Source of the DNA: Mycobacterium adipatum
Lineage (GTDB): Bacteria > Actinomycetota > Actinomycetes > Mycobacteriales > Mycobacteriaceae
Reading direction: 5' to 3'
Assembly (NCBI RefSeq): GCF_001644575.1
Contig: NZ_CP015596.1
Span: 5,394,001 to 5,458,000 of the forward strand
DNA: 64,000 bases
In this document: one piece after another, positions 4,939 to 39,524 of the stretch
How positions within the stretch are numbered: the first letter of the stretch is position 1
Layout of the letters: the number at the start of each line of letters is the position of its first letter
Position numbers and translations under genes: made by a program
The notes under the pieces: generated by a model
Databases searched by the model: none
What the model was told of the DNA's origin: nothing
Seen by the model: only the letters and a program-made list of their open reading frames with translations

Positions 4939-5833
4939 ACGTTGTCCGCTCGCACAATCGAGGTAAAATTGACGGCCTCGTTAGCCAGCAAAAGGTGGCG
5001 ACCCGCACCGATGTTGGGCCAGTCGACCCGATTCGAGCGTTGGACACTGCAGGCTGATCGGTCCATGCGGCTCACTTGCCTGGCCATAACGCCCCCCTGT
5101 CGCAATCTGACACTATTTTGCGGAGCGCTACGCAAATCGCAAGTCGAACGCATGATGCCCCGCACACCTGGGGGAGCACACGTGAAGCCCCCGGTTCATC
5201 CATTGAGCTGCATGTTAGTACGCAGGGCCCATGACGGACAGCGGAACAACCGACTTTTCCCAGAGTTAACCCAGATGCCCGACCCACATACTGTGTTCAG
5301 ACTATGAAGCTGCTGCTCACAGGGGTGCTCGGCGCGCATCGAGAGGCCCCGAGTCGAATAGGATGATCCGTACTTCGAACCTGACTGCGGACCGCTGTTC
5401 GTGTCCTCGCGGGGCCATAGAATTGTTTGCTGTGATTTCGTTTCAGCGTGAGATTCCGTCCAGTTCGATCACCCATATCGCGCGGCCGTGAGGTTCGAGC
5501 AGGGCGGAGGCTTCGACACAGCCACATGCGAAGTAGTTCTTATAGCAAACTTCTCGGTCGCGGAGTGTGGCCTCCAACTGCTCCCGTCGGTGCCCCGCGC
5601 ACGACACTCATGGCTTGCACTTGAACGGTGCGACGCCACCATCGGACGAACAGGAGCTCGGCTTGCGCCTTTGAACGACCTGGCCGCACCACCGGGCCCA
5701 ATTTCGCTGTGGTTGCACCACAGTGCGATAGCTGGCGAACGGAGCGTCCCAGCGCCGATACTTGGTATGGCCCGCGTGCGCCGTCCAACAGTTCGGTCAG
5801 CACGAACGCCCCCTGCAATCCAAGGAGTTCATC
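4939..5833. other. Gene-poor region between the glycan operon and the tyrosine phosphatase
   Basis: About 0.9 kb with no open frame that looks like a real gene. The frames present are short, lack recognisable motifs and overlap one another. The stretch is relatively AT-rich like the glycan genes on its left. It separates the divergently oriented sugar transferase and phosphatase genes, so it should hold both promoters. I see no tRNA, insertion sequence or strong repeat in it. Confidence 0.5.
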
Positions 5834-18570: not shown

Positions 18571-18728
18571 GTGGACAGACAACTGATTTCGCGACAAGAT
18601 AGCCTTCTGACGCCGAATTTCGTTGGGTACTGATCCGTTTTCAGCGAGATTACGCCTTGGTAGCGCCAAGGCGGGTTGGCAGAATTGTTCGCTAGAACCG
18701 GATGATGTGGCATCGCAGGGGGTGGGCC

Positions 18729-19595
18729 GTGACGAACATCGTGTTGTGTTTCGACCACTCCGGCGAGAGCAATGCCACCGCCCTCTTCCGACGCGTCGAC
18801 CAGGCCGGGCAGGTGGGTTGGCGGCAGTACACCAACAGTCGTCCCGAGGAGGCCCGGGCGTCGGTCGCCGCGGCCTACTCCCATCTGGTCGATCACTGGC
18901 AGCCCGGTGACGACGTCTTCGTCTTCGGCGCCGGCAGCGGTGCGGCGTGCGCGCAGGCCCTGGCCCGGCTACTCGGCACCATCGGCGTGCTGGACGGCGA
19001 ATTGCGCAGCTACATGCTGGCCACCTATGCCCTGCCGCGCACCGCGCGCACGGCGCAGGAATGGCGCCATGTCACCGAGGTGGCCGCCGGTCTGGCCGAG
19101 CACGACGACATCACCCTGCCGGTGCGCTTCCTCGGCTTGTGGGACGCCACCCGCATCCGCGGCACCGCAGGGCCGGTCAACGTCGCCGCCGGCCGGCACG
19201 CGGTGGCCATCGACGGGGCACCGAACCTGCAGCGCGTCGACGGCGTCGATGAGGTGTGGTTCCGCGGATCGCATCGCGATATCGTGGCCAGCCCATTGAC
19301 CCTGGACTGGATGCTCGACGGCGCCGAGCAGGCCGGGCTGCGGTTGGACCGCACGCCCTCGGCGCACGTCGAGGCCGAGAGTTCGGCGCTGAACGTGGGG
19401 TTGCGGCGGGTGCCGCAAGGTGCGGCAGTACACGCCAGCGTCCAGATGTATGTGCGGGCACATCCGCGGTACTGGCGCCGGCTGCCCGCACAGGTCGAAT
19501 GGGCCGATCTGGACTGGCTGGACCGCGGCGAGCGACTGTTCGCGGGCACGGACAGCGTCCCCGTGCGGCCGCGGGCCCTCGCCACCGCTTCCTAG
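18729..19595 (+). CDS. DUF2235 (Tle1-like alpha/beta hydrolase) protein
   Basis: 288-residue protein of the DUF2235 family, the fold of the type VI phospholipase effector Tle1 and related alpha/beta hydrolases. The start MTNIVLCFDHSGES matches the family's N-terminal (V/L)xCxDGTxN element. I use GTG 18729 since the open frame's earlier ATG adds residues not seen in the family. Around residues 64-75 it reads FVFGAGSGAACA where family members have GFSRGA, so the usual nucleophile Ser is a Gly and a Ser sits one place later. Activity is therefore doubtful. Neighbours give no clue to a substrate. Confidence 0.75.
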   Translation: MTNIVLCFDHSGESNATALFRRVDQAGQVGWRQYTNSRPEEARASVAAAYSHLVDHWQPGDDVFVFGAGSGAACAQALARLLGTIGVLDGELRSYMLATYALPRTARTAQEWRHVTEVAAGLAEHDDITLPVRFLGLWDATRIRGTAGPVNVAAGRHAVAIDGAPNLQRVDGVDEVWFRGSHRDIVASPLTLDWMLDGAEQAGLRLDRTPSAHVEAESSALNVGLRRVPQGAAVHASVQMYVRAHPRYWRRLPAQVEWADLDWLDRGERLFAGTDSVPVRPRALATAS

Positions 19596-21354: not shown

Positions 21355-22185
21355 TTGAACCACCCCACGCCAGGCTCCCGACCCCCCGGAGAACCGCCGC
21401 GGCAGCGCACGACGTTGCTGTGGGTCGCGTTGGCGATTGCAGTGGTCGTCATCGTGGTGCTGTCCGTCGTCGTCATCAAACAGTTCAGCAACGACACCAC
21501 CGGGAGTCCCATCCCTTCGTCGACGGCAGCGTCGGCAACCGTCCCATCCGCACCCCCGCCGGTCTCGTCGAGCCCAGACGACGGCGTCGTCAGTTCCTCG
21601 ATGACCTGCGACGGCTACACCGCATCCGTCGACGAGGGCTCCCAGCCGGGATGGCACGCGGCGATCAATCGGTTCGGCTTGGCCTATGCCGCCCCGCCGG
21701 ATTGGACCGTCGCGGCATGCGGCGTCCGGTCGGGCTGGGCCAAGCCCTGCCCCGAAGGTCAGTGCGTCATACGGGAACTCGGCGCGGTGGCGACCGTCGC
21801 CAACCCCGCATGCCCCAAGCAGAACCTGGCGATGTCGGGTGTCGCCGGATCCAGGAACCCGGATATCAGGGCCGCCCTGGACGAGGAGTCGGCTCTGGTG
21901 GCACCGATCTATACCCAGGGCGACACGGTGCCGAATGTCGAGTTGGGCCCGGTTCGTGACTTCACCATCGGGACGCGTCCCGCGGTGCAGGTGGTGGCCA
22001 CGGTCACCGGCATCGCCGCAGACGACTGCAACGGGCCGAACGCGCTGCACAGCATGGTCGTCACCACGGTGCCCAACGTGGAGGGATCCGTCGTCTTCTT
22101 GATCTCGTTGCGCGAGGGTGCCACCGCCTCCCCGAAGTCTGATGTCATCGACGGGATGGTCCAGACGCTGCGCAGCCCCGCCTGA
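21355..22185 (+). CDS. Membrane-anchored secreted protein of unknown function
   Basis: 276 residues from TTG 21355. A Pro-rich cytoplasmic start is followed by one transmembrane helix (LLWVALAIAVVVIVVLSVVV, about 21-40), a Ser/Pro/Thr spacer (about 48-80) and an outer domain of about 190 residues. The outer domain has six to seven cysteines (TCDGY, AACGV, PCPEGQCV, NPACPK, DDCNG) that could form disulfides. I do not recognise the family. An 8-bp perfect hairpin lies 32 nt past the stop. The gene sits directly upstream of the giant repeat gene; whether they cooperate is unknown. Confidence 0.7.
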   Translation: MNHPTPGSRPPGEPPRQRTTLLWVALAIAVVVIVVLSVVVIKQFSNDTTGSPIPSSTAASATVPSAPPPVSSSPDDGVVSSSMTCDGYTASVDEGSQPGWHAAINRFGLAYAAPPDWTVAACGVRSGWAKPCPEGQCVIRELGAVATVANPACPKQNLAMSGVAGSRNPDIRAALDEESALVAPIYTQGDTVPNVELGPVRDFTIGTRPAVQVVATVTGIAADDCNGPNALHSMVVTTVPNVEGSVVFLISLREGATASPKSDVIDGMVQTLRSPA

Positions 22186-22445: not shown

Positions 22446-25400
22446 TTGGCATCTTCTGCACGACGCCGGGATGCGGGGCGCAATCGGGCCCGCCACCACA
22501 AGCACAAGAACCCCGCCCGAGCCCAAGCGACATACCCCACCTTCCGCCTGGACGCCCCGGCAGCCACGTCGACCGCCGACAACGGGAGCTACGGCAGATA
22601 CATCGGCCGGGTCGGCGGGCTGGCTGTCGCGCTCGGCGTCGGTGCCGCCCTGACCACCGGGCTCGGCGCCGGGATCGCCCATGCCGGGCCCAGCACGACG
22701 AAGAACACCTCGCACGACTCGCCGACGACGCCGCGCACAAAGTCACCCAAAACGGCGAAGACGTCCCCCCGGACGGCGACAAGGCCTGCGGCGCCGACCG
22801 CCGACGATCCCCCGGATGCAGTCGACGAGACCGGACCGGACGCCACAACCGACACGCCCACGCAAGCTGACCTCGACGCGACGGTCGCCACCCCAGCGTC
22901 GACCGCGGACACATCGGCGCTCACTGCGGCGCCACCGTCGTCCGAACCCGACCGCGCATACTCCGATGTGTCGGCGCCCGACTCGACACCGGCCGATCCT
23001 GACGCCTCCGTGCTGCCCACCGGATCGACTCCGTCGGCCGCCATCTCACTGCCGTCCCCGACCGACGACACTGCGCCGGCACCACAAGGCACGGGCTTCG
23101 GGACCAACAGCAGCCCGGCGGGTGCCGGCACGCCATCGGCGGCGTCCCTCGCGCCGGTCGCGGCGGCCCCGGCCGCGAAGACGAGCGTCATGCAGGTGTT
23201 CGTCTCGACGCTCCTGTCGCCGTTCCTGGCCCCGGGGCCGGCCGCCCCCTGCCAGCCGCCTCTGATGTGGGCGATGTTGGCCTCCGTCGTCCGCGAGTTC
23301 CAGCGCACGTTCTTCAACAGGTCCCCCGTGGTGCTGCCGCAGGACGTAACCCTTGTCCTGGAGCCGGACGGAACCAGCAGTCCGACAGCGTTCAACGGCC
23401 ATGACGGCGACGGTGACAAGCTCACCTACATCGTGCCGGCGCGCGGCGTCCCCGGCGGGCCCAGCCACGGATGGGTCACCGTCGACGAACTGACGGGCAC
23501 GTTCACCTACACCCGTGACGGGAACTACACCGGTCCCGACCAATTCACGGTTACGGCCAGCGACGCGGGCAACGGCTTCCACATGCACGGATTGCTCGGG
23601 TTCCTGCGCCCAGCCTGGGGCCACACCGATACGACCACGATCACGATCGACGTCGTCGCCGCCGAAACACCGCCAACCGTCAACAACGACTTCTTCACCA
23701 CCCCCGAAGACATCCCGGTGCTGGGCAGCGTGCTGAGCAATGACAGCGATCCCAACGACGAAACGCTCACCACCACACTGCTTTCCGAACCTTCTAATGG
23801 CAGCGTGACACTGGAACAGAACGGAGTGTTCAACTACACGCCGAATCCGGACTGGAATGGTGTGGACGGATTCACCTACCGCGCCTCCAACCGCATGGCC
23901 AGCGCAAGCGCATCCGTGTCGATCGTCGTCACCCCGGTCAACAAAGCGCCACAGACCAGCGACGATCTGTACACCACCACGGAGGACACGGCGATCTCCG
24001 GGAACGTGTTGAACAACGACACCGATACCGATGGCGACGCCATCACCGCCGGCCTCGTGATGCCCGCGAGTCACGGGAACGTCCAACTCAATGCCGACGG
24101 ATCCTTCAGCTACACCCCTGGCGCCAACTTCCACGGCACGGACGGATTCTCCTACGTCGCGTCGGACGGATCACTATCCAGCGCACCGACACTCGTCACC
24201 ATCACGGTCACACCGGTCAATGACGCCCCGGTCGCCCACAACGACAGCTACGCCGTCAATGAAGACAGCATCCTGACCGGCAGTGTGCTGCCGAACGACA
24301 CCGACGCAGACGGAGATTCACTCGCCGTATCGCTGGGGGTGGGACCCGCCCACGGCAGTCTCACACTCAACCCCAACGGGTCGTTCTCCTACATACCGGC
24401 GGCCAACTACAACGGGACCGACAGCTTCACCTATACCGTGACCGACGGCGTGGCCACCAGCAATTCGGCCACCGCCACCATCACGGTCAACGCCGTCAAC
24501 GACATCCCGGTAGCAAGTGATGCTTCGTTCAGTGTCAACGAGGACGGCAGCTACACGGGCACCGTGAGTGTCAACGACGTCGATGGCGATTCGGTGACCT
24601 CCGTGGTGGTCAATGGTCCCGCCCACGGAAGCCTGGCGTTCGACGGCAGTGGCGCGTTCGTGTACACGCCGGCAGCCAACTACACCGGTACAGACTCGTT
24701 CACCTACACCGCGACCGACGGTGTCGGCACCAGTTCTGTTGCCAGAGTCTCGATTACGGTGACACCGGTTAACGACACCCCCGTAGCGGTCAACGACACG
24801 TTCACCGCCAACGAGGACAGCATCCTGACCGGAAGCGTGCTCAGCAACGACACCGATGTCGACGGCAATACCCTCACGGCCACAACGGTTATCGGACCCA
24901 GCCACGGAACGCTTGTGCTGAACGCGGATGGCTCATTCAGCTACACGCCGGACGCCGACTACGCCGGGGCGGATTCGTTCGCCTACGTCGCCGACGACGG
25001 CACCGCGACAAGTTCGGTCGCCACCGTGTCCATCACCATCAGCCCCGTCAACGATGCACCCGTCGCCGGTGACGACATCTTCAGCATCAACGAGGACAGC
25101 TCGCTGACCGGGAACCTACTGGCCAATGACAGCGATGTGGACGGCGATTCGCTGACGGCGTCGCTGACCGAAGGCCCGGGGAACGGCACCCTGGAGTTCA
25201 ATTCCGACGGCACCTTCACCTACACACCCTCTGCCAACTTCAACGGCGTGGATTGGTTCACCTACACCGTCTCGGACGGGGTGCTATCCAGCGCTCCGGC
25301 ACTCGTGGTGGTGCTGGTCGACCCGGTCAACGATGTCCCGGCCGCCGGCAACGACAGCTATACCGTCAACGAAGACAGCACTCTTGCAGGCAATGTGCTG

Positions 25401-28400
25401 TCCAACGACAGCGACGCTGAATCCCTTTCGTTGACAGCAACATTGGTGTCGGGACCCACCCACGGCACCCTCACCCTGTATCCGAACGGCTCGTTCACCT
25501 ATACCCCAGCGCCGAACTACAAGGGGACGGACTCCTTTACCTATACCGCATCCGACGGTACCGCCATCAGTTCAGTGGCAGTGGTGTCGATTTCGGTCGC
25601 CCCCGACAACAAGGTCCCGGTTGCGAACGCAGACAGCTACACCGGCAATGAGGACAGCGCTCTCGCCGGCAACGTGCTGGCCAACGACACCGATGCCGAC
25701 GGCAACACGCTCACCGCGACACTGATCAGCGGGCCCGCACACGGATCGCTGGAGCTGAACGCCGACGGGACCTTCACCTACACCCCAGTGCTGAACTACA
25801 ACGGGGCTGATTCGTTCACCTACACCGCGAGCGACGGCACCGCCACCAGCTCGGTGGCCACGGTGTCGATCACGGTCAGCGCGGTCAACGACACGCCGGT
25901 TGCGGTGGGTGATGCGGCCAGCACCGACGAGGACACCGTCCTCACCGGCAACGTTCTCTCGAACGATTCGGATGTCGACGGCAACACGCTGACCGCGAGC
26001 CTGGTCGATGGGCCCGCCAACGGCACCCTGACCCTCAACCCGGACGGAAGCTTCACCTACACACCGGATGCGGACTTCGACGGCGCCGACTCCTTCACCT
26101 ACACCGCCACCGACGGCACCGCCACGAGCTCCGTTGCCACCGTCTCGATCACCGTCAACCCGGTCAACGATGCACCCGCCACCGTCGCCGATAGCTTCAC
26201 TACCGACGAGGACACGGTGCTCACCGGCAACGTGTTGTCGAATGATACCGACAACGACGGCGACACGTTGGCCGCGACCCTGGTTGACGGGCCCGCCAAC
26301 GGCACCCTCACCCTCAGCCCCGACGGCACCTTCACCTACACCCCGGACACCGACTTCAACGGCACCGACTCCTTCACCTACACCGCAGGCGACGGCACCA
26401 CCACCAGTCCGGTGGCCACCGTCTCGATCACCGTCAACCCGGTCAACGATGCACCCACCACCGTCGCCGACAGCTTCACCACCGACGAAGACACCGACCT
26501 CACCGGCAACGTTCTCTCGAACGACACCGACATCGACGCAGACACATTGACCGCGACCCTGGTCGACGGCCCCGCCAACGGCACCCTCACCCTCAACCCC
26601 GACGGCACCTTCACCTACACACCGGACACCAACTTCAACGGCACCGACTCCTTCACCTACACCGCAGGCGACGGCACCGCGACGAGTTCCGTTGCCACGG
26701 TGTCGATCACCGTCAACCCGATCAACGATGCACCGGTTGCCGCGGGTGACACGGTCAGCACCAACGAAGACACCGTCCTCACCGGCAACGTCCTGACCAA
26801 CGACTCCGATACAGACGGCGACACCCTCACCGCGACCCTGGTCGACGGCCCCACCAACGGCACCCTCACCCTCAACCCCGACGGCACCTTCACCTACACC
26901 CCGGACACCAACTTCAACGGCACCGACTCCTTCACCTACACCGCAGGCGACGGCACAGCGACCAGTTCTGTTGCCACGGTGTCGATCACCGTCAATGCTG
27001 TAAACGACGCCCCGGTCACCGTCGCCGATAGCTTCACCACCGACGAGGACACCGTCCTCACCGGAAACGTTCTCTCGAACGATTCGGACGTGGACGGCAA
27101 CACGCTCACTGCGAGCCTGGTCGACGGACCCACCAACGGCACCTTGACGCTCAACCCGGACGGCAGCTTCACCTACACTCCGGATGCGGACTTCAACGGG
27201 TCTGACTCGTTCACCTACACCGCAGGCGACGGCACCGCGACCAGTCCGGTGGCGACGGTGTCGATCACGGTCAACCCGCTCAACGATGCACCGGTTACTG
27301 TCGCCGACAGCTTCACCACCGACGAGGACACCCCACTGACCGGCAACGTCCTCTCAAACGACACCGACAACGACGGTGACACCCTCACCGCCACCCTCGT
27401 CGACGGCCCCACCAACGGCACCCTCACCCTCAACCCCGACGGAAGCTTCACCTACACCCCGACGGCCAACTACAACGGGGCCGACAGCTTCACCTACACC
27501 GCAGGCGACGGCACCGCGACCAGTTCCGTTGCCACCGTCTCCATCACGGTCAACCCCGTCAACGACACCCCGGTCACCGTCGCCGACAACTTCACCACCG
27601 ACGAAGACACCGTCCTCACCGGAAACGTGCTCACCAACGACTCGGACATCGACGGCAACACCCTCACCGCCACCCTCGTCGACGGCCCCACCAACGGCAC
27701 CCTCACCCTCAACCCCGACGGATCCTTCACCTACACCCCAGACACCAACTACAACGGGGCCGACAGCTTCACCTACACCGCAAGCGACGGCACCGCGACC
27801 AGTTCCGTGGCCACCGTCTCCATCACGGTCAGCCCGATCAATGACACCCCGGTCGCCGCGGGTGACACGGTCAGCACCAACGAAGACACCGTCCTCACCG
27901 GCAACGTGCTGACCAACGACTCGGACGTCGACGGTGACACCCTCACCGCGACCCTGGTTGACGGCCCCGCCAACGGCACCCTGACGCTGAATGCCGACGG
28001 CTCGTTCACCTACACCCCGGATGCGGACTTCAACGGGGCCGACTCCTTCACCTACACCGCCACCGACGGCACCGCGACGAGTTCGGTGGCGACGGTGTCG
28101 ATCACCGTCGACCCGGTCAACGATGCGCCAGTTGCGGCGGGTGACACGCTGAGCACCGACGAGGACACCGTCCTCGGCGGGAACGTGTTGTCGAACGACT
28201 CGGATGTCGACGGCGACACATTGACCGCGACCCTGGTTGACGGCCCCGCCAACGGCACCCTGACGCTGAATGCCGACGGCTCGTTCACCTACACCCCAAA
28301 TACAGACTTCAACGGCGCCGATTCCTTCACCTATACCGCCGGCGACGGCACCGCAACGAGCTCCGTTGCCACAGTGTCGATCACGGTCAACCCGGTCAAC

Positions 28401-31400
28401 GATTCACCCGCCACCATCAACGACAGCTTCACTACCGACGAAGACACCCCACTGAGCGGAAACGTTCTCTCGAACGATTCGGACGTGGACGGCAACACGC
28501 TCACCGCCACCCTCGTCGACGGACCCACCAACGGCACCCTGACGCTCAACGCTGACGGCAGCTTCACCTACACACCCACCGCCAACTTCAACGGCGCCGA
28601 CTCCTTCACCTACACCGCCGGCGACGGCACCGCCACCAGTCCGGTGGCAACCGTCTCCATCACCGTCAGCCCAGTCAATGACACCCCGGTCACCGCGGAT
28701 GACACGGTCTCCACCAACGAGGACACGACTCTCACCGGAAACGTTCTCTCAAACGACACCGACAACGACGGTGACACCCTCACCGCCACCCTCGTCGACG
28801 GACCCACCAACGGCACCCTGACCCTCAACCCGGACGGATCCTTCACCTACACACCCACCGCCAACTTCAACGGCGCCGAGTCCTTCACCTACACCGCCAC
28901 CGACGGCACCGCCACCAGTCCGGTGGCCACCGTCTCCATCACCGTCAACCCGGTCAACGACACACCCGTCACTGTTGATGACTCGGTGAGCACCAACGAG
29001 GACACCGCCCTCACCGGCAACGTCCTCTCAAACGACTCCGATTCAGATGGCGACACGCTGACCGCGACCCTGGTTGACGGACCCGCCAACGGCACCCTCA
29101 CCCTCAACCCGGACGGATCCTTCACCTACACCCCGGATGCGGACTTCAACGGGGCCGATTCGTTCACCTACACCGCGAGCGACGGCACGGCCACCAGTTC
29201 TGTTGCCACCGTGTCGATCACGGTCAGCGCGGCCAACGACACACCCGCCACCGTCGCCGACAGCTTCACCACCAATGAGGACACCGCCCTCACCGGAAAC
29301 GTGCTGACCAACGACTCGGACGTGGATGGCGACAGCCTCACCGCGACCCTCGTCGACGGACCCACCAACGGCACCCTCATCCTCAACGCCGACGGCACCT
29401 TCACCTACACACCCACCGCCAACTTCAACGGCACCGACTCGTTCACCTACACCGCCACCGACGGCACCTCCACCAGTTCCGTTGCCACCGTCTCCATCAC
29501 GGTCAACCCGGTCAACGATGCACCGGTTGCCGCGGGTGACGCGGTGAGCACCAACGAAGACACCCCACTGTCCGGCAACGTGCTGACCAACGACTCGGAT
29601 GTCGACGGCGGCACATTGACCGCGACCCTGGTCGACGGACCCGCCAACGGCACCCTGTCGCTGAATGCCGACGGCACCTTCACCTACACCCCGGACACTG
29701 ACTTCAGCGGTTCTGATTCCTTCACCTATACCGCAAGCGACGGAACCGCGACGAGTTCCGTTGCCACGGTGTCGATCACGGTCGATCCCGTCAATGATGC
29801 ACCGGTTGCCGCGGGTGACACGGTGAGCACCAACGAAGACACCCCACTGTCCGGCAACGTCCTCTCGAACGACTCGGATGTCGACGGCGACAGCCTCACG
29901 GCCACCCTGGTTGACGGACCCGCCAACGGCACCCTGACCCTCAATCCGGACGGAAGCTTCACCTACACCCCGAACACCGACTTCAACGGCGCCGACTCGT
30001 TCACCTACACCGCCAGCGACGCCACCGCGACGAGCTCCGTGGCCACGGTGTCGATCACCATCGCTGCGGTCAACGACGCCCCGGTGGCGGTGGGTGACAC
30101 GTTCACCACCGACGAAGACACCGTCCTCACCGGAAACGTTCTCTCCAACGACTCCGATACAGACGGCGACACCCTCACGGTGACTCTGGTCGATGGGCCG
30201 GCAAACGGCACCCTCACTCTGAACCCCGACGGGTCGTTCACCTACACACCCACCGCGAACTACAACGGCTCCGATTCGTTCACCTATACCGCCGGCGACG
30301 GCACAGCGACGAGTTCTGTTGCCACGGTGTCCATCACCGTCAATCCGGTCAACGATGCACCAGCCGCGGTGGGTGACGCGGTGAGCACCGACGAGGACAC
30401 CGTCTTCACCGGCAACGTTCTCTCCAACGATTCGGATATCGACGGCGACACCCTCACCGCGACCCTGGTCGACGGCCCCACCAACGGCACCCTGACGCTC
30501 AATGCCGACGGATCGTTCACCTACACACCCACCGCCAACTTCAACGGGGCAGACTCCTTCACGTATACCGCCGGCGACGGCACCGCGACCAGTTCCGTGG
30601 CCACCGTCTCGATCACGGTCAACCCGGTCAACGATGCACCCGCCACCATCAACGACAGCTTCACTACCGACGAAGACGCCCCACTGAGCGGAAACGTTCT
30701 CTCGAACGATTCGGACGTGGACGGCAACACGCTCACCGCCACCGTGGTCGACGGACCCACCAACGGCACCCTCACCCTCAACCCCGACGGCACCTTCACC
30801 TACACCCCGGATGCGGACTTCAACGGGTCTGACTCGTTCACCTACACCGCCGGCGACGGCACCGCCACGAGTTCGGTTGCCACCGTGTCGATCACCGTCA
30901 ACCCGGTCAACGACGCCCCGGTAGCAGTGAGTGACACGTTCACCACCGACGAAGACACCGTCCTCACCGGAAACGTTCTCTCCAACGACTCCGATACAGA
31001 CGGCGACACCCTCACGGTGACTCTGGTCGACGGCCCCGCCAACGGCACCCTCACTCTGAACCCCGACGGGTCGTTCACCTACACACCCACCGCGAACTAC
31101 AACGGCTCCGATTCGTTCACCTATACCGCCGGCGACGGCACAGCGACGAGTTCTGTTGCCACGGTGTCCATCACCGTCAATCCGGTCAACGATGCACCAG
31201 CCGCGGTGGGTGACGCGGTGAGCACCGACGAGGACACCGTCTTCACCGGCAACGTTCTCTCCAACGATTCGGATATCGACGGCGACACCCTCACCGCGAC
31301 CCTGGTCGACGGCCCCACCAACGGCACCCTGACGCTCAATGCCGACGGATCGTTCACCTACACACCCACCGCCAACTTCAACGGGGCAGACTCCTTCACG

Positions 31401-34400
31401 TATACCGCCGGCGACGGCACCGCGACCAGTTCCGTGGCCACCGTCTCGATCACGGTCAACCCGGTCAACGATGCACCCGCCACCATCAACGACAGCTTCA
31501 CTACCGACGAAGACGCCCCACTGAGCGGAAACGTTCTCTCGAACGATTCGGACGTGGACGGCAACACGCTCACCGCCACCGTGGTCGACGGACCCACCAA
31601 CGGCACCCTCACCCTCAACCCCGACGGCACCTTCACCTACACCCCGGATGCGGACTTCAACGGGTCTGACTCGTTCACCTACACCGCCGGCGACGGCACC
31701 GCCACGAGTTCGGTTGCCACCGTGTCGATCACCGTCAACCCGGTCAACGACGCCCCGGTAGCAGTGAGTGACACGTTCACCACCGACGAAGACACCGTCC
31801 TCACCGGAAACGTTCTCTCCAACGACTCCGATACAGACGGCGACACCCTCACGGTGACTCTGGTCGACGGCCCCGCCAACGGCACCCTCACTCTGAACCC
31901 CGACGGGTCGTTCACCTACACGCCCACCGCGAACTACAACGGCTCCGATTCGTTCACCTATACCGCCGGCGACGGCACAGCGACGAGTTCTGTTGCCACG
32001 GTGTCCATCACCGTCAATCCGGTCAACGATGCACCAGCCGCGGTGGGTGACGCGGTGAGCACCGACGAGGACACCGTCTTCACCGGCAACGTTCTCTCCA
32101 ACGATTCGGATATCGACGGCGACACCCTCACCGCGACCCTGGTCGACGGCCCCACCAACGGCACCCTGACGCTCAATGCCGACGGATCGTTCACCTACAC
32201 ACCCACCGCCAACTTCAACGGGGCAGACTCCTTCACGTATACCGCCGGCGACGGCACCGCGACCAGTTCCGTGGCCACCGTCTCGATCACGGTCAACCCG
32301 GTCGACGATGCACCCGCCACCATCAACGACAGCTTCACTACCGACGAAGACGCCCCACTGAGCGGAAACGTTCTCTCGAACGATTCGGACGTGGACGGCA
32401 ACACGCTCACCGCCACCGTGGTCGACGGACCCACCAACGGCACCCTCACCCTGAATGCTGACGGCACCTTCACCTACACACCCGACACCAACTTCAACGG
32501 CACCGACAGCTTCACCTACACCGCAGGCGACGGCACCACGACGAGTTCGGTGGCGACGGTGTCGATCACCGTCGACCCGGTCAACGATGCGCCAATTGCG
32601 GTGGGTGATGCGGTGAGCACCGACGAGGACACCGTCCTCGCCGGGAACGTGTTGTCGAACGACTCGGATGTCGACGGCGACACATTGACCGCGACCCTGG
32701 TGGACGGGCCCACCAACGGCACCTTGACCCTCAACTCGGACGGCTCGTTCACCTACACCCCGGATGCGGACTTCAACGGGGCCGATTCGTTCACCTACAC
32801 CGCCACCGACGGCACCGCCACGAGTTCTGTTGCTACGGTGTCGATCACGGTTAACCCGGTGAACGATGCACCCGTCACTGTTGATGACTCGGTGAGCACC
32901 AACGAGGACACCGTTCTCACCGGGAACGTGTTGTCGAACGACTCGGATGTCGACGGCGACACTTTGACCGCGACCCTGGTGGACGGCCCCACCCACGGCA
33001 CCCTGACGCTGAATGCTGACGGCTCGTTCACCTACACCCCCGATGCGGACTTCAACGGCGCCGACTCCTTCACCTACACCGCCACCGACGGCACCGCCAC
33101 GAGCTCCGTTGCCACGGTGTCAATCACGGTCAACCCAGTCAACGATGCACCGGTCGCCGCGGATGACACGTTCTCCACCGACGAGGACACCCCACTAAGC
33201 GGAAACGTCCTCTCAAACGACTCGGACGTGGACGCCGACACCCTCACCGCCACCCTGGTCGACGGCCCCGCCAACGGCACCCTGACCCTCAATGCCGACG
33301 GCTCGTTCACCTACACCCCCGATGCGGACTTCAACGGCGCCGACTCCTTCACCTACACCGCCACCGACGGCACCGCCACGAGCTCCGTTGCCACGGTGTC
33401 AATCACCGTCGACCCGGTCAACGATGCACCGGTCGCCGCGGATGACACGTTCAGCACCGATGAGGACACCCCACTAAACGGAAACGTCCTCTCAAACGAC
33501 TCGGACGTGGACGCCGACACCCTCACCGCCACCCTGGTCGACGGCCCCGCCAACGGCACCCTGACCCTCAATGCCGACGGCTCGTTCACCTACACCCCCG
33601 ATGCGGACTTCAACGGCGCCGACTCCTTCACCTACACCGCCACCGACGGCACCGCCACCAGTTCGGTTGCCACCGTCTCCATCACGGTCAACCCGGTCAA
33701 CGACACCCCGGTCGCCGCGGGTGACACGTTCAGCACCAACGAAGACACCCCACTGTCCGGCAACGTGCTGACCAACGATTCGGACGTGGACGGCGACACA
33801 TTGACCGCGGCCCTGGTCGATGGCCCCGCCAACGGCACCCTGACGCTGAATGCCGACGGCTCGTTCACCTACACCCCGGATGCGGACTTCAACGGGGCCG
33901 ACTCCTTCACCTACACCGCCACCGACGGCACCGCGACGAGTTCGGTGGCCACGGTGTCGATCACCGTCAACCCGGTCAACGATGCGCCAGTTGCGGCGGG
34001 TGACACGCTGAGCACCGACGAGGACACCGTCCTCGGCGGGAACGTGTTGTCGAACGACTCGGATGTCGACGGCGACACCCTCACCGCCACCCTCGTCGAC
34101 GGACCCACCCACGGCACCCTCACCCTCAACCCCGACGGAAGCTTCACCTACACACCGACGGCCAACTACAACGGGGCCGACAGCTTCACCTACACCGCCG
34201 CCGACGGCACCGCCACGAGTTCCGTGGCCACCGTCTCGATCACGGTCAACCCGGTCAACAACACACCCGTCACCGTCAATGACACGCTGAGCACCAACGA
34301 GGACACCGTCCTCACCGGCAACGTGCTGACCAACGACTCGGACACGGACGGCGATACCCTCACGGCAACAGTGGTTGACGGGCCTACCAACGGCACCCTC

Positions 34401-37400
34401 ACCCTCAACCCGGACGGCACCTTCACCTACACCCCAGACACCAACTTCAACGGCGCCGACTCCTTCACCTACACCGCGGGAGACGGAACCGCCACCAGTT
34501 CCGTTGCCACCGTCTCCATCACGGTCAACCCGGTCAACGACACCCCGGTCGCCGCGGGTGACACGGTCAGCACCAACGAAGACACCCCACTGTCCGGCAA
34601 CGTGCTGTCGAACGACACCGACATCGACGGTGACACCCTCACCGCCACCCTCGTCGACGGACCCACCAACGGCACCCTCACCCTCAATGCTGACGGCACC
34701 TTCACCTACACCCCGGATGCGGACTTCAACGGCGCCGACAGCTTCACCTACACCGCCACCGACGGCACCGCGACGAGTTCGGTTGCCACCGTCTCGATCA
34801 CGGTCAACCCGGTCAACGACACACCCGTCACCGTCAATGACACGCTGAGCACCGACGAGGACACCGTCCTCACCGGCAACGTGCTGACCAACGACTCGGA
34901 CACGGACGGCGATACCCTCACGGCAACAGTGGTTGACGGGCCTACCAACGGCACCCTCACCCTCAACCCGGACGGCACCTTCACCTACACCCCAGACACC
35001 AACTTCAACGGCGCCGACTCCTTCACCTACACCGCGGGAGACGGAACCGCCACCAGTTCCGTTGCCACCGTCTCCATCACGGTCAACCCGGTCAACGACA
35101 CCCCGGTCGCCGCGGGTGACACGGTCAGCACCAACGAAGACACCCCACTGTCCGGCAACGTGCTGTCGAACGACACCGACATCGACGGTGACACCCTCAC
35201 CGCCACCCTCGTCGACGGACCCACCAACGGCACCCTCACCCTCAATGCTGACGGCACCTTCACCTACACCCCGGATGCGGACTTCAACGGCGCCGACAGC
35301 TTCACCTACACCGCCACCGACGGCACCGCGACGAGTTCGGTTGCCACCGTCTCGATCACGGTCAACCCGGTCAACGACACACCCGTCACCGTCAATGACA
35401 CGCTGAGCACCGACGAGGACACCGTCCTCACCGGCAACGTGCTGACCAACGACTCGGACACGGACGGCGATACCCTCACGGCAACAGTGGTTGACGGGCC
35501 TACCAACGGCACCCTCACCCTCAACCCGGACGGCTCGTTCACCTACACACCCGACACCAACTTCAACGGCACCGACAGCTTCACCTACACCGCCACCGAC
35601 GGCACCGCGACGAGTTCTGTTGCCACGGTGTCGATCACCGTCGACCCGGTCAACGATGCGCCAGTTGCGGCGGGTGACACGGCCAGCACCGACGAGGACA
35701 CCGTCCTCACCGGGAACGTGCTGACCAACGATTCCGATGTCGACGGCGACACCCTCACCGCCACCCTCGTCGACGGTCCGGCCAACGGCACCCTGACGCT
35801 CAATGCCGACGGCTCGTTCACCTACACCCCGGACACCAACTTCAACGGCACCGACTCCTTCACCTACACCGCAGGCGACGGCACCGCGACGAGTTCTGTT
35901 GCCACGGTGTCGATCACGGTCAATCCGGTCAACGATGCACCCGTCGCGGTCGGTGACGCGGTCACCACCGACGAGGACACCGTCCTCACCGGAAACGTGC
36001 TGACCAACGATTCCGACGTGGACGGCGACACCCTCACCGCCACCCTCGTCAACGGACCCGCCAACGGCACCCTGACGCTCAACCCGGACGGCAGCTTCAC
36101 CTACACACCCACCGCCAACTTCAACGGCACCGACTCGTTCACCTACACCGCCACCGACGGCACCGCCACCAGCGACACGGCCACGGTGTCCATCACCGTC
36201 AACCCGGTCAACGACGCCCCCGTCGCCGTCGACGACTCCTTCAGCACCGACGAGGACAGCATCCTTACCGGCACGGTGCTGTCAAACGACACTGACACCG
36301 AATCGGACACACTCACAGCAACTTTGGTCGACGGACCCACCAACGGCACCCTCACCCTCAACGCCGACGGCACGTTCACCTACACCCCGACGGCCAACTA
36401 CAACGGCACCGACTCCTTCACCTACACCGCCACCGACGGCACCGCGACGAGCAACACCGCCACCGTCACGATCACCGTCAACGCGGTCAACGACGCCCCC
36501 GTCGCCGAGGACGACTCGTTCACATTCGACGAGGACAACAGCTTGTCGGCGAGCGTGCTCTCCAATGACAGCGATATCGACGGCGATACCCTCACCACCA
36601 CCCTCGTCGACGGACCGACAAACGGCACCCTGACGCTCAACGCGGATGGCACCTTCACCTACACCCCGGACGCCGACTACAACGGCACCGACAGCTTCAC
36701 CTACACCGTCAGCGACGGAACCAGCACCAGTTCCGTTGCAGCCGTGTCGATCACCGTCGACCCGATCAACGATGCCCCCATCGCGAACAACGATTCGTAT
36801 TCCATCGGCGAGGACAGCACCCTCACCGGCAACGTGTTGACCAACGACACCGACGCCGACGGCAACACCCTGACCGCAACCCTGGTCGATGGGCCCACCC
36901 ACGGCACCCTCACCCTCAACGCGGATGGCAGCTTCACCTACACCCCGACCACCGACTACACGGGCATCGACAGCTTCAGCTATCGGACATCAGACGGATC
37001 TGAGACCAGCAATACCGCCCTGGTGACCATCGCGGTGACGGCCGTCAACGATGCTCCGATTGCCGCGGATGACTCGTTCAGCACCAACGAGGACACCCAG
37101 GTCAGCGGCAATGTACTCACCAATGACACCGATGCCGACGGCGACATCCTCACCGCAACACTGGTCAGCGGACCCACCCACGGCACCCTCACCCTCAATG
37201 CCGACGGCACCTTCACCTACACCCCGACCGCCAACTACAACGGCACCGACAGCTTCACCTACGCCGCCGGCGACGGCAGCGTGACCGACAACGCCCTGGT
37301 GACCATCTCGATCACGTCCGTCAACGACACTCCGGTCGCCGCCGGGGACACCTTGAGCATCAACGAGGACAGCATCCTGACGGGCAACGTGCTCAGCAAT

Positions 37401-39524
37401 GACACCGACGCCGACGGCAACACCCTCACCGCAACCCTGGTCAGCGGACCCACCCACGGCACCCTCACCCTCAACACCGACGGCACCTTCACCTACACCC
37501 CCACCACCAACTACAACGGCACCGACAGCTTCACCTACACCGCCACCGACGGCACCGCCACCAGCAACACCGCCACCGTCTCCATCACCATCAACGCCGT
37601 CAACGACGCCCCCGTCGCCGTCTCCAACAGCTACACCACCAACGAAGACACCCAACTGACCGGCAATGTCCTGACCAATGACACTGACGCAGAAGGCAAC
37701 ACGTTGACCGCAACGCTGGCCACCGGACCCACCCACGGCACCCTCACCCTCAACACCGACGGCACCTTCACCTACACACCCACCACCAACTACAACGGCA
37801 CCGACAGCTTCACCTACACCGCCACCGACGGCACCGCCACCAGCAACACCGCCACCGTCTCCATCACCATCAACGCCGTCAACGACGCCCCCGTCGCCGT
37901 CTCCAACAGCTACACCACCAACGAAGACACCCAACTGACCGGCAACGTGCTGACCAACGACACCGACGCCGACGGAAACACCCTCACCGCAACGCTGGTC
38001 ACCGGACCCACCCACGGCACCCTGACCCTCAACACCGACGGCACCTTCACCTACACCCCGACGGCCAACTACACGGGCTCCGATGTCTTCACCTACAAGG
38101 CCAACGACGGCACCGTCAACAGCAACACCGCGGTGGTCAGCATCACCGTCACCCCGGTCAACGACACCCCGGTCGCGGTGAACGACACCTACTCCACCAA
38201 CGAGGAATCCCCCCTCAACGGCAACGTCTTGAGCAATGACACCGACGCCGACGGCAACACCCTCACCGCCACCCTCGTCAGCGGACCGGCAAACGGCACC
38301 CTGACCCTCAACACCGACGGCACCTTCACCTACACACCCACCACCAACTACAACGGCACCGACAGCTTCACCTACACCGCGGGCGACGGCACCGCCACCA
38401 GCAACACCGCCACCGTCTCCATCACCGTCAACCCGGTGAACGACGCTCCGGTCGCCGCCAACGACTCCTACTCCACCAACGAAGATGTCCAGCTCGCCGG
38501 CAACGTGCTCAGCAATGACACCGACATCGACGGCAACACCCTCACCACCACCCTCGTCAGCGGGCCGGCAAACGGCACCCTGACCCTCAACACCGACGGC
38601 ACCTTCACCTACACACCCACCACCAACTACAACGGCACCGACAGCTTCACCTACACCGCCACCGACGGCGCGATCACCAGTAACACCGCCACCGTGACGG
38701 TGACGGTCAACGCCGTCAACGACGCGCCGGTCGCCACCAACGATTCCTACAGCACCAACCAGGGCATCGCGCTGAACGGCAACGTCCTGAGCAACGACAC
38801 CGACGCCGACGGCAACACGCTCACCGCGTCCGTGGTGGCCGGGCCTGCCCATGGGTCACTGACGCTGAATGCGAACGGCTCGTTCACCTACACGCCCGCC
38901 ACGAACTACAACGGCACCGACAGCTTCACCTACGTAGCCAACGACGGTACGGCGAACAGCACCGTAGCCACCGTCAGCATCACGATCGTCGACAACGTCG
39001 CCCCGACGGCAGTCGACGTCCAGACCACCAACGGCGGCTCCGCCGGTTACTTGGACCAGGGTGACACCATCACCTACACCTTCAGCGAGGCGATCGATCC
39101 GACGACGATCCTGGCTGGATGGGATGGTTCGACGACGAACATCGTGGTGCGCGGGTACAACGGCACCCTCTTGAACGGCCTCAACGACTATCTGCAGATC
39201 TACGACTCGACCAACAGCACGATATTGCCGCTGGGCACGGTCTATCTCGGCCGCCAGGACTATCTCGCCAGCTTGAGTGGCAGCGCCCCCGTCACGTACG
39301 GCGCGACCGGAACGGCGTCCACAATGACACTGAGCGGCAACACACTCACCATCGTGCTCGGCACATATGAAGCCGACCCATTCGGCGTGTACCGACAGTT
39401 CGCTCTGGGAACCGGCGCGATGGTCTGGACGCCCTCGACGGGTACGAGACCGGAGGACCTGGCCGGGAACGTGATGACGACGACGTCGGCCACCGAGTCC
39501 GGCACCGCGGACAGGGACTTCTGA
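22446..39524 (+). CDS. Giant secreted tandem cadherin/Big_9-like repeat protein (5,692 residues)
   Basis: One unbroken frame of 17 kb. TTG 22446 is the first start after an in-frame stop, with GGTGGGAG 6 nt upstream. Residues 1-80 are an extended signal peptide: a basic 50-residue lead, RYIGRVGGLAVALGVGAALT, and a likely cut after AHA (80). Residues 81-265 are a Thr/Pro/Ala/Ser linker. At 274-293 comes MWAMLASVVREFQRTFFNRS, then one divergent domain. Residues 408-5517 are 55 tandem domains, mostly 93 residues, each with an EDT-x-L-x-GNVL-x-ND-x-D-x-DGD-x-L acidic motif, GTLTLN-x-DG-x-FTYTP and DSFTYTA. These resemble Big_9/cadherin-like modules and the acidic motif suggests calcium binding. 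The last 175 residues are a different Ig-like domain (DQGDTITYTFSEAID). No LPXTG motif or C-terminal helix. Probable adhesin or matrix protein, by inference. Confidence 0.9.
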   Translation: MASSARRRDAGRNRARHHKHKNPARAQATYPTFRLDAPAATSTADNGSYGRYIGRVGGLAVALGVGAALTTGLGAGIAHAGPSTTKNTSHDSPTTPRTKSPKTAKTSPRTATRPAAPTADDPPDAVDETGPDATTDTPTQADLDATVATPASTADTSALTAAPPSSEPDRAYSDVSAPDSTPADPDASVLPTGSTPSAAISLPSPTDDTAPAPQGTGFGTNSSPAGAGTPSAASLAPVAAAPAAKTSVMQVFVSTLLSPFLAPGPAAPCQPPLMWAMLASVVREFQRTFFNRSPVVLPQDVTLVLEPDGTSSPTAFNGHDGDGDKLTYIVPARGVPGGPSHGWVTVDELTGTFTYTRDGNYTGPDQFTVTASDAGNGFHMHGLLGFLRPAWGHTDTTTITIDVVAAETPPTVNNDFFTTPEDIPVLGSVLSNDSDPNDETLTTTLLSEPSNGSVTLEQNGVFNYTPNPDWNGVDGFTYRASNRMASASASVSIVVTPVNKAPQTSDDLYTTTEDTAISGNVLNNDTDTDGDAITAGLVMPASHGNVQLNADGSFSYTPGANFHGTDGFSYVASDGSLSSAPTLVTITVTPVNDAPVAHNDSYAVNEDSILTGSVLPNDTDADGDSLAVSLGVGPAHGSLTLNPNGSFSYIPAANYNGTDSFTYTVTDGVATSNSATATITVNAVNDIPVASDASFSVNEDGSYTGTVSVNDVDGDSVTSVVVNGPAHGSLAFDGSGAFVYTPAANYTGTDSFTYTATDGVGTSSVARVSITVTPVNDTPVAVNDTFTANEDSILTGSVLSNDTDVDGNTLTATTVIGPSHGTLVLNADGSFSYTPDADYAGADSFAYVADDGTATSSVATVSITISPVNDAPVAGDDIFSINEDSSLTGNLLANDSDVDGDSLTASLTEGPGNGTLEFNSDGTFTYTPSANFNGVDWFTYTVSDGVLSSAPALVVVLVDPVNDVPAAGNDSYTVNEDSTLAGNVLSNDSDAESLSLTATLVSGPTHGTLTLYPNGSFTYTPAPNYKGTDSFTYTASDGTAISSVAVVSISVAPDNKVPVANADSYTGNEDSALAGNVLANDTDADGNTLTATLISGPAHGSLELNADGTFTYTPVLNYNGADSFTYTASDGTATSSVATVSITVSAVNDTPVAVGDAASTDEDTVLTGNVLSNDSDVDGNTLTASLVDGPANGTLTLNPDGSFTYTPDADFDGADSFTYTATDGTATSSVATVSITVNPVNDAPATVADSFTTDEDTVLTGNVLSNDTDNDGDTLAATLVDGPANGTLTLSPDGTFTYTPDTDFNGTDSFTYTAGDGTTTSPVATVSITVNPVNDAPTTVADSFTTDEDTDLTGNVLSNDTDIDADTLTATLVDGPANGTLTLNPDGTFTYTPDTNFNGTDSFTYTAGDGTATSSVATVSITVNPINDAPVAAGDTVSTNEDTVLTGNVLTNDSDTDGDTLTATLVDGPTNGTLTLNPDGTFTYTPDTNFNGTDSFTYTAGDGTATSSVATVSITVNAVNDAPVTVADSFTTDEDTVLTGNVLSNDSDVDGNTLTASLVDGPTNGTLTLNPDGSFTYTPDADFNGSDSFTYTAGDGTATSPVATVSITVNPLNDAPVTVADSFTTDEDTPLTGNVLSNDTDNDGDTLTATLVDGPTNGTLTLNPDGSFTYTPTANYNGADSFTYTAGDGTATSSVATVSITVNPVNDTPVTVADNFTTDEDTVLTGNVLTNDSDIDGNTLTATLVDGPTNGTLTLNPDGSFTYTPDTNYNGADSFTYTASDGTATSSVATVSITVSPINDTPVAAGDTVSTNEDTVLTGNVLTNDSDVDGDTLTATLVDGPANGTLTLNADGSFTYTPDADFNGADSFTYTATDGTATSSVATVSITVDPVNDAPVAAGDTLSTDEDTVLGGNVLSNDSDVDGDTLTATLVDGPANGTLTLNADGSFTYTPNTDFNGADSFTYTAGDGTATSSVATVSITVNPVNDSPATINDSFTTDEDTPLSGNVLSNDSDVDGNTLTATLVDGPTNGTLTLNADGSFTYTPTANFNGADSFTYTAGDGTATSPVATVSITVSPVNDTPVTADDTVSTNEDTTLTGNVLSNDTDNDGDTLTATLVDGPTNGTLTLNPDGSFTYTPTANFNGAESFTYTATDGTATSPVATVSITVNPVNDTPVTVDDSVSTNEDTALTGNVLSNDSDSDGDTLTATLVDGPANGTLTLNPDGSFTYTPDADFNGADSFTYTASDGTATSSVATVSITVSAANDTPATVADSFTTNEDTALTGNVLTNDSDVDGDSLTATLVDGPTNGTLILNADGTFTYTPTANFNGTDSFTYTATDGTSTSSVATVSITVNPVNDAPVAAGDAVSTNEDTPLSGNVLTNDSDVDGGTLTATLVDGPANGTLSLNADGTFTYTPDTDFSGSDSFTYTASDGTATSSVATVSITVDPVNDAPVAAGDTVSTNEDTPLSGNVLSNDSDVDGDSLTATLVDGPANGTLTLNPDGSFTYTPNTDFNGADSFTYTASDATATSSVATVSITIAAVNDAPVAVGDTFTTDEDTVLTGNVLSNDSDTDGDTLTVTLVDGPANGTLTLNPDGSFTYTPTANYNGSDSFTYTAGDGTATSSVATVSITVNPVNDAPAAVGDAVSTDEDTVFTGNVLSNDSDIDGDTLTATLVDGPTNGTLTLNADGSFTYTPTANFNGADSFTYTAGDGTATSSVATVSITVNPVNDAPATINDSFTTDEDAPLSGNVLSNDSDVDGNTLTATVVDGPTNGTLTLNPDGTFTYTPDADFNGSDSFTYTAGDGTATSSVATVSITVNPVNDAPVAVSDTFTTDEDTVLTGNVLSNDSDTDGDTLTVTLVDGPANGTLTLNPDGSFTYTPTANYNGSDSFTYTAGDGTATSSVATVSITVNPVNDAPAAVGDAVSTDEDTVFTGNVLSNDSDIDGDTLTATLVDGPTNGTLTLNADGSFTYTPTANFNGADSFTYTAGDGTATSSVATVSITVNPVNDAPATINDSFTTDEDAPLSGNVLSNDSDVDGNTLTATVVDGPTNGTLTLNPDGTFTYTPDADFNGSDSFTYTAGDGTATSSVATVSITVNPVNDAPVAVSDTFTTDEDTVLTGNVLSNDSDTDGDTLTVTLVDGPANGTLTLNPDGSFTYTPTANYNGSDSFTYTAGDGTATSSVATVSITVNPVNDAPAAVGDAVSTDEDTVFTGNVLSNDSDIDGDTLTATLVDGPTNGTLTLNADGSFTYTPTANFNGADSFTYTAGDGTATSSVATVSITVNPVDDAPATINDSFTTDEDAPLSGNVLSNDSDVDGNTLTATVVDGPTNGTLTLNADGTFTYTPDTNFNGTDSFTYTAGDGTTTSSVATVSITVDPVNDAPIAVGDAVSTDEDTVLAGNVLSNDSDVDGDTLTATLVDGPTNGTLTLNSDGSFTYTPDADFNGADSFTYTATDGTATSSVATVSITVNPVNDAPVTVDDSVSTNEDTVLTGNVLSNDSDVDGDTLTATLVDGPTHGTLTLNADGSFTYTPDADFNGADSFTYTATDGTATSSVATVSITVNPVNDAPVAADDTFSTDEDTPLSGNVLSNDSDVDADTLTATLVDGPANGTLTLNADGSFTYTPDADFNGADSFTYTATDGTATSSVATVSITVDPVNDAPVAADDTFSTDEDTPLNGNVLSNDSDVDADTLTATLVDGPANGTLTLNADGSFTYTPDADFNGADSFTYTATDGTATSSVATVSITVNPVNDTPVAAGDTFSTNEDTPLSGNVLTNDSDVDGDTLTAALVDGPANGTLTLNADGSFTYTPDADFNGADSFTYTATDGTATSSVATVSITVNPVNDAPVAAGDTLSTDEDTVLGGNVLSNDSDVDGDTLTATLVDGPTHGTLTLNPDGSFTYTPTANYNGADSFTYTAADGTATSSVATVSITVNPVNNTPVTVNDTLSTNEDTVLTGNVLTNDSDTDGDTLTATVVDGPTNGTLTLNPDGTFTYTPDTNFNGADSFTYTAGDGTATSSVATVSITVNPVNDTPVAAGDTVSTNEDTPLSGNVLSNDTDIDGDTLTATLVDGPTNGTLTLNADGTFTYTPDADFNGADSFTYTATDGTATSSVATVSITVNPVNDTPVTVNDTLSTDEDTVLTGNVLTNDSDTDGDTLTATVVDGPTNGTLTLNPDGTFTYTPDTNFNGADSFTYTAGDGTATSSVATVSITVNPVNDTPVAAGDTVSTNEDTPLSGNVLSNDTDIDGDTLTATLVDGPTNGTLTLNADGTFTYTPDADFNGADSFTYTATDGTATSSVATVSITVNPVNDTPVTVNDTLSTDEDTVLTGNVLTNDSDTDGDTLTATVVDGPTNGTLTLNPDGSFTYTPDTNFNGTDSFTYTATDGTATSSVATVSITVDPVNDAPVAAGDTASTDEDTVLTGNVLTNDSDVDGDTLTATLVDGPANGTLTLNADGSFTYTPDTNFNGTDSFTYTAGDGTATSSVATVSITVNPVNDAPVAVGDAVTTDEDTVLTGNVLTNDSDVDGDTLTATLVNGPANGTLTLNPDGSFTYTPTANFNGTDSFTYTATDGTATSDTATVSITVNPVNDAPVAVDDSFSTDEDSILTGTVLSNDTDTESDTLTATLVDGPTNGTLTLNADGTFTYTPTANYNGTDSFTYTATDGTATSNTATVTITVNAVNDAPVAEDDSFTFDEDNSLSASVLSNDSDIDGDTLTTTLVDGPTNGTLTLNADGTFTYTPDADYNGTDSFTYTVSDGTSTSSVAAVSITVDPINDAPIANNDSYSIGEDSTLTGNVLTNDTDADGNTLTATLVDGPTHGTLTLNADGSFTYTPTTDYTGIDSFSYRTSDGSETSNTALVTIAVTAVNDAPIAADDSFSTNEDTQVSGNVLTNDTDADGDILTATLVSGPTHGTLTLNADGTFTYTPTANYNGTDSFTYAAGDGSVTDNALVTISITSVNDTPVAAGDTLSINEDSILTGNVLSNDTDADGNTLTATLVSGPTHGTLTLNTDGTFTYTPTTNYNGTDSFTYTATDGTATSNTATVSITINAVNDAPVAVSNSYTTNEDTQLTGNVLTNDTDAEGNTLTATLATGPTHGTLTLNTDGTFTYTPTTNYNGTDSFTYTATDGTATSNTATVSITINAVNDAPVAVSNSYTTNEDTQLTGNVLTNDTDADGNTLTATLVTGPTHGTLTLNTDGTFTYTPTANYTGSDVFTYKANDGTVNSNTAVVSITVTPVNDTPVAVNDTYSTNEESPLNGNVLSNDTDADGNTLTATLVSGPANGTLTLNTDGTFTYTPTTNYNGTDSFTYTAGDGTATSNTATVSITVNPVNDAPVAANDSYSTNEDVQLAGNVLSNDTDIDGNTLTTTLVSGPANGTLTLNTDGTFTYTPTTNYNGTDSFTYTATDGAITSNTATVTVTVNAVNDAPVATNDSYSTNQGIALNGNVLSNDTDADGNTLTASVVAGPAHGSLTLNANGSFTYTPATNYNGTDSFTYVANDGTANSTVATVSITIVDNVAPTAVDVQTTNGGSAGYLDQGDTITYTFSEAIDPTTILAGWDGSTTNIVVRGYNGTLLNGLNDYLQIYDSTNSTILPLGTVYLGRQDYLASLSGSAPVTYGATGTASTMTLSGNTLTIVLGTYEADPFGVYRQFALGTGAMVWTPSTGTRPEDLAGNVMTTTSATESGTADRDF
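30075..32585 (+). repeat. Three near-identical 837-nt (three-domain) duplications
   Basis: Units 24-26, 27-29 and 30-32 form three consecutive blocks (30075-30911, 30912-31748, 31749-32585) that repeat the domain order DAPVAV-, DAPAAV-, DAPATI-. The last two blocks are almost identical in DNA; visible differences include one silent change (acacca/acgccc) and one Asn-to-Asp change giving VDDAP. This is a recent segmental amplification within the array. Confidence 0.9.
34260..35654 (+). repeat. 558-nt (two-domain) duplication with a partial third copy
   Basis: Units 39-40 (34260-34817) and 41-42 (34818-35375) are nearly identical, with an early Asn/Asp codon change (agcaccaac/agcaccgac). Unit 43 (35376-35654) begins as a third copy but diverges part way, from the ggctcgttc codons near 35531. 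It looks like an unequal exchange that ended inside a domain. Confidence 0.88.

Follow-up and report, generated by a model that had tools for sequence, protein, structure and literature searches.

Giant adhesins with immunoglobulin (Ig)-like repeats are already known from Gram-negative bacteria and from sortase-bearing Actinomycetota such as Mobiluncus. The Gram-negative BapA, LapF and RTX giants leave the cell by type I secretion, are retained at their N-terminal end and have a very long acidic stalk that is probably stiffened by calcium. In one account of RTX adhesins, calcium is placed in the linkers and the C-terminal adhesion domains (PMC7493085). Mobiluncus mulieris has a giant adhesin of 7,651 aa with 51 Ig domains that is described as sortase-anchored; it bears an LPxTG at its C-terminal end, contains cross-linked domains and is predicted to have an adhesion domain at its N-terminal end (PMC10619420). 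For mycobacteria, a review reports no sortase activity in any species and presents practically all known adhesins as attached non-covalently and apparently often loosely; the main text of this review of mycobacterial adhesion contains neither "giant" nor "Ig-like" (PMC8875947). A first-pass annotation of the DNA analyzed here had remarked that giant repeat adhesins have not been studied as a system in mycolate bacteria and, in keeping with this remark, no description was found in the literature searched, a body of work that left most subscription journals outside its scope.

The window, by which we mean the whole 64,000-nucleotide stretch of the Mycobacterium adipatum genome that was analyzed, encodes a protein comparable to these systems in several respects. 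Like the Gram-negative giants, it has a very long acidic and probably calcium-stiffened stalk, but it has an ordinary N-terminal signal peptide. Like the M. mulieris adhesin, it comes from an actinomycete and consists of a single-chain Ig stalk of a size of the same order, whereas its genome has no Pfam Sortase match and its sequence ends in DRDF. With the tandem-95, Big_9 and bacterial cadherin-like giants it has its repeats in common, and what sets it apart from them is its ends, one mycobacterial and the other actinobacterial. What is new is the presence of a payload-independent mycobacterial N-terminal module and an actinobacterial C-terminal domain on a 56-domain stalk with no detectable sortase. 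The features of the gene are as follows.

22446-39524, plus strand: giant stalk gene, TTG start, uninterrupted frame of 5,692 aa, 17 kb.
22446-22685, plus strand: extended signal peptide (residues 1-80), seen in the sequence, its n-region being present in most stalk relatives.
22686-23201, plus strand: Ala/Thr/Pro/Ser-rich linker (residues 81-252), recognized by composition.
23202-23660, plus strand: N-proximal module (residues 253-405), delimited by alignment, model and sharing with other payloads.
About 23259-23315, plus strand: helix of the module (residues 272-290), followed by a divergent cadherin/Ig domain.
23673-38987, plus strand: 55 tandem-95/Big_9/cadherin-like repeats of about 93 residues each, most with D-x-D-x-D-G.
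30204-31921, plus strand: 881-bp stretch duplicated exactly and in direct orientation, offset 837 bp, unit of three repeats.
34297-35534, plus strand: 680-bp stretch duplicated exactly and in direct orientation, offset 558 bp, unit of two repeats.
38988-39521, plus strand: C-terminal beta domain of 177-178 residues (5515-5692), candidate tip, ending in ESGTADRDF at the stop.

The first-pass annotation had proposed a single intact 17-kb gene for a giant secreted protein with a signal peptide, a Thr/Pro linker and 55 acidic Ig-like domains, and the analysis supports this outline. There is no stop within the 5,692 codons, GGGAG lies about 8 nt 5' of the TTG start, and a second full-length copy of the protein (P0002; 5,504 aa, 97% identity over the part used as query, with the same two ends) starts at the same residue. 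The signal peptide opens with an n-region of about 53 residues counted from the TTG (RARHHKHK..RAQATYPTFRL..YGRYI) and continues with the hydrophobic core GRVGGLAVALGVGAALTTG and a likely cleavage site after AHA. The protein has 12 Lys, 29 Arg and 1 Cys and a net charge of -729, in line with the acidic character ascribed to its domains, and its repeats match Big_9 and cadherin families. A profile built from the protein's own repeats gives 56 matches, one of them partial and divergent (residues 296-379) and the other 55 spanning residues 410-5520, so that the count of 55 is valid for the regular repeats and one divergent Ig domain has to be added, making 56 in total. The earlier anatomy overlooked two features, a separate domain of 177 residues at the C-terminal end and the recurrence of the N-terminal module in other proteins. 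The GC3 of the gene is 0.86, compared with 0.84-0.88 in three neighbours. Within the repeat array, the minus strand has an open frame of 1,317 aa (29043-32996), which probably shadows the repetitive, high-GC coding strand; the stalks of relatives likewise have long antisense frames opposite.

By its repeats, the window's protein is a tandem-95/Big_9 protein. In Pfam and NF scans that took in residues 1-3519 and the last 347 residues, the repeats matched Big_9, Cadherin_4, Cadherin_5 and tandem-95 far above the cut-offs (PF17963, PF17803, PF17892, NF012211). Over residues 1-3519, Big_9 scored 2,699.9 bits and NF012211 2,774 bits (cut-off 90) in 35 stretches. The whole protein contains 48 D-x-D-x-D-G motifs; loops of the DxDxDG type bind calcium in other proteins, and their presence is suggestive of calcium binding by the window's repeats. 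Membership of the BapA/Bap/LapF large adhesin family (NF045619) was considered and rejected: residues 1-3519 score 693 bits against a cut-off of 180 in 32 stretches (the best covering 121-212 of 458), an above-cut-off score that reflects repeat similarity, and the C-terminal 347 residues score 43.1 bits against the same cut-off (best stretch 137-233 of 458), the C-terminal region of the family not being found. No RTX family was among the Pfam matches at E <= 1 for residues 1-3519 and the C-terminal 347.

The N-proximal module consists of a helix (PPLMWAMLASVVREFQRTFFNRSP; pattern PPLxWAMLAxVRRE..TFFNRxP) and a divergent cadherin/Ig domain into which a histidine-rich segment is inserted (HMHGLLGFLRPAWGH). 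An AlphaFold2 model based on seven sequences (mean pLDDT 71.5, pTM 0.59) places the helix, with moderate confidence only, at module positions 20-38 and gives the insertion a pLDDT below 50; cadherin domains head the list of PDB structures matching this model. Pfam recognizes no more of the module than its Ig domain, which it assigns to Big_9 in some but not all of the proteins. Searching the N-terminal part in its own genome also retrieved a GH1 glycosidase (L020), whose module is 41% identical to the window's in the alignment, a second protein (L022), and a DUF4185 protein (L021), in which the match covers the signal peptide, the linker and the helix but no Ig domain can be seen. Two same-genome proteins with the N module, L022 and L082, are without any Pfam match. 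DUF4185 enzymes have been described as endo-D-arabinanases acting on mycobacterial wall glycans (PMC10115798). Mycobacterial "family 1 glycosylhydrolase" proteins with an N-terminal Big_9 carry the same helix and divergent Ig module as the window's protein, with a catalytic domain in place of the stalk. The GH1 protein L020, used as a query, had at least 208 matches of 455-1449 aa in the protein database, scoring being limited to the 7,992 candidates with most words in common. Every one of the 120 listed contains GH1.

A profile of seven modules, whose seed alignment includes that of the window (its own membership therefore holds by construction), matched 34 of 60 same-genus genomes at E <= 1e-5 when Ig-only matches are included; matches that take in the helix, starting by model position 25, occur in at least 31 of the 60 among the matches listed. 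Nine matches starting by position 16 sit, again among those listed, in frames of more than 2,000 aa (7 of the 60 genomes), and long frames with the N module are therefore not unique to the window. In an order-wide sample the profile matched 17 of 121 genomes, six of them from the same genus; of the 11 from other genera only G294, a member of the same family, has a match starting before model position 27 among the matches listed. Within the loci examined, 57 frames (52 distinct) match from model position 25 or earlier to position 70 or beyond, and in the 52 distinct modules the N and P of FFNRxP are invariant and one preceding arginine is found at 0.90. Downstream pieces were scanned for 45 of the 57 frames and contained, among the best 25 of 52 matching families, Big_9 (12), GH1 (6), Lactonase-type propellers (4), Exo_endo_phos (3) and peptidases M13 (1) and M4 (1). 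That such unrelated payloads follow the module argues that the job of the N-terminal end is independent of the payload. Most proteins of the stalk group also have a long n-region in front of the core of the signal peptide (RHxKxK, QATYPxFxL, YxRYI), the middle part of which (QATYPxFxL) is absent from L055.

The C-terminal domain yielded an AlphaFold2 model with a pLDDT of 93.0 and a pTM of 0.90. Pfam gave no match on the window's copy and a weak Big_5 match in 3 of 30 copies. In 36 distinct frames the domain is always C-terminal, with 10 residues or fewer beyond the match, and 35 of these frames end in F at the stop, a residue kept even where the rest of the domain diverges. Five of 148 same-genus genomes have it, that of the window among them, and it occurs also in other Actinomycetota. 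Each of the ten C-domain proteins encountered in mycobacteria is a stalk of the Big_9 type; for seven of them the N-terminal end lies in the examined DNA, and all seven have the N module. The C-domain stalk of Mycobacterium sp. MBM, the gene for which is split between two contigs inside the array, also has the N module. Two further stalks with the N module (L065 and L066) are devoid of the C domain and have different ends, which argues for a constant base and a variable tip.

We favour, with a probability of about 0.5, the reading that the protein is a giant surface tether, exported by the Sec pathway, held by its N module, stiffened by calcium along its stalk and tipped by its C-terminal domain. 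The extended signal peptide would direct Sec export, and the cleaved protein would be kept at the surface by its N-proximal part, in which the Ala/Thr/Pro linker would traverse the wall and be followed by the conserved helix and the divergent Ig domain; mycobacteria place this module before exported enzymes as well. The 55 acidic repeats would take up calcium in their DxDxDG loops and form a stiff stalk. A cadherin domain is about 4 nm long; at that length per domain the stalk would measure about 0.2-0.25 micrometre, with the 177-residue domain outermost and in contact with a surface, a particle or other cells. We infer adhesion, N-terminal anchorage, a C-terminal tip and calcium binding. As to polarity, an end common to unrelated payloads most likely serves location and one that varies among stalks contact; since the N-terminal end is shared with unrelated payloads and the C-terminal end differs among stalks, the former would be the base and the latter the tip, the same polarity as in the Gram-negative adhesins retained at their N-terminal end. 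The first-pass annotation had left open how the protein is held; the N-proximal module common to non-stalk mycobacterial proteins now presents itself as a candidate anchor.

The opposite polarity, with the C-terminal domain and its DRDF end acting as a retention or assembly signal and the N module as a folding spacer or distal tip, appears to us rather doubtful. The anchoring role of the N module in the tether reading is derived from its sharing, and a secreted enzyme may bear a spacer domain without being anchored. The C-terminal domain, for its part, is the constant portion of other Actinomycetota proteins in which the N module was not seen, and so could be the retained end; these are small proteins, some encoded beside a SipW-type signal peptidase. 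Two of them (L058 and L059) are about 340 aa long, share the domain with the window's protein at 53% and 48% identity, lack the mycobacterial N module and have a SipW-type peptidase gene directly upstream. The strictly terminal position of the domain and its final F fit such a signal, as does the last residue block of the model, which is its least confident (pLDDT 69 against a mean of 93), as expected of a conserved linear signal. Set against this is the rarity of the C-terminal domain relative to the N module (5 of 148 against at least 31 of 60 same-genus genomes), from which it follows that most module proteins manage without it.

The tether reading calls for retention by a route other than sortase. 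Pfam Sortase (PF04203) had no match in the M. adipatum genome and was positive in 3 of 14 control genomes, and the protein sequence has no C-terminal membrane helix; the first-pass annotation had seen neither a sortase motif nor such a helix. An LPXTG/sortase-anchored protein was accordingly rejected, given the lack of a Sortase match and a C-terminal end that is a folded domain ending in DRDF. The same two absences would suit a matrix protein that is secreted unanchored and cross-links cells as a calcium-dependent biofilm fibre, an alternative we regard as unlikely. SipW-type peptidases process biofilm-matrix proteins in Bacillus, and tblastn with two actinobacterial SipW-type queries placed such a gene near 7 of 39 C-domain loci, all seven of them non-mycobacterial. 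None was found by tblastn at the ten mycobacterial C-domain loci (L053-L057, L060, L061, L105, L106 and L130; flanks of 1.5-10 kb), on which ground a SipW-dependent (TasA-type) exported protein was rejected, and a freely released fibre would have no obvious need of a conserved extended signal peptide and N module. For the tether, a link to the wall is conceivable, as two mycomembrane proteins of Corynebacterium are reported in a preprint to be linked to the cell wall (PMC12632848) and helical segments elsewhere in the same order might be linked likewise.

The exact duplications within the array point to its recent growth, and because of them the exact repeat number hinges on the assembly; a further 381-bp exact copy of parts of the 881-bp duplication starts at 31923. 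Repeat-profile matches number 56 in the window, 54 in P0002, whose array is differently composed and arranged, 38 in M. frederiksbergense LB501T, 43 in M. arenosum, 27 and 11 in the two stalks of G132 and 24 in that of G011. The median dN/dS among equal-length repeats is 0.23 (1,268 pairs with usable dS). In the comparison with M. frederiksbergense LB501T, dN/dS is 0.10 for the N module, 0.18 for the C-terminal domain, 0.24 for the signal peptide with its extension (70 codons) and 0.45 for the linker, the highest of the four parts, recC giving a dN of 0.07 and a dS of 0.50 by the same method; for the C-terminal domain against Mycobacterium sp. MBM it is 0.12. Against the more distant M. arenosum the ratios are 0.43 (signal peptide), 0.34 (N module) and 0.41 (C-terminal domain) at a dS near 1, and purifying selection looks weaker. 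Both ends of the stalk are under purifying selection while the repeat number shifts between relatives. A largely non-functional expansion, in which recombination would have lengthened a minor secreted protein and left the stalk unselected, accords with the exact duplications of 881 and 680 bp, the differing order and number of repeats among close relatives and the scarcity of the C-terminal domain, but is very improbable in view of a frame free of stops, of dN/dS values of 0.23 between repeats and 0.10-0.24 in the N module, C-terminal domain and signal peptide against M. frederiksbergense LB501T, and of the maintenance of long arrays in several species and at several loci.

The genes upstream of the stalk gene include those for an enoyl-CoA hydratase and a 276-aa protein, and recC, recB and recD lie downstream. 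The 276-aa protein (21355-22185, plus strand), which has one hydrophobic helix, lies between the hydratase and the stalk gene; homologues at the level of 65% or more were found in only 5 of 146 same-genus genomes, each with a related stalk, and in G011 and G132 they lie about 5 kb from the stalks at a different locus. A second stalk locus (L060, L061, L065/L151, L019/L152) occurs in M. bacteremicum, M. aurum, G011 and G132, where it lies upstream of a set of genes for a TetR protein, an enoyl-CoA hydratase and an SDR. Three of the four have two stalk-type genes in tandem there, and glpD is nearby in each of the three cases in which the flank is long enough. Also upstream of the stalk in the window (18702-19595, plus strand) lies a gene whose product matches the catalytic domain of T6SS Tle1-like phospholipases (PF09994); M. 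frederiksbergense and Mycobacterium sp. MBM have a counterpart at the equivalent position.

M. frederiksbergense LB501T, a close relative carrying the stalk gene, reportedly degrades anthracene. M. adipatum YC-RL4 is described as a phthalate degrader from petroleum-contaminated soil (PMC10517868), and given these capacities of host and relative it is plausible that the stalk is used for attachment to solid pollutants. With regard to how mycobacteria retain adhesins without sortase (cf. PMC8875947), a module common to a giant stalk and many enzymes provides a concrete candidate display signal. It is possible, and we advance it tentatively, that the extended signal peptide, wall-spanning Ala/Thr/Pro linker, FFNRxP helix and divergent Ig domain together make up a general mycobacterial N-terminal surface-display module that would hold payloads as diverse as glycosidases, peptidases, propellers and the giant calcium tether at the mycolate envelope, the -DRDF domain serving as an adhesive tip. 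Such a module would be the mycomembrane equivalent of LPXTG sorting.
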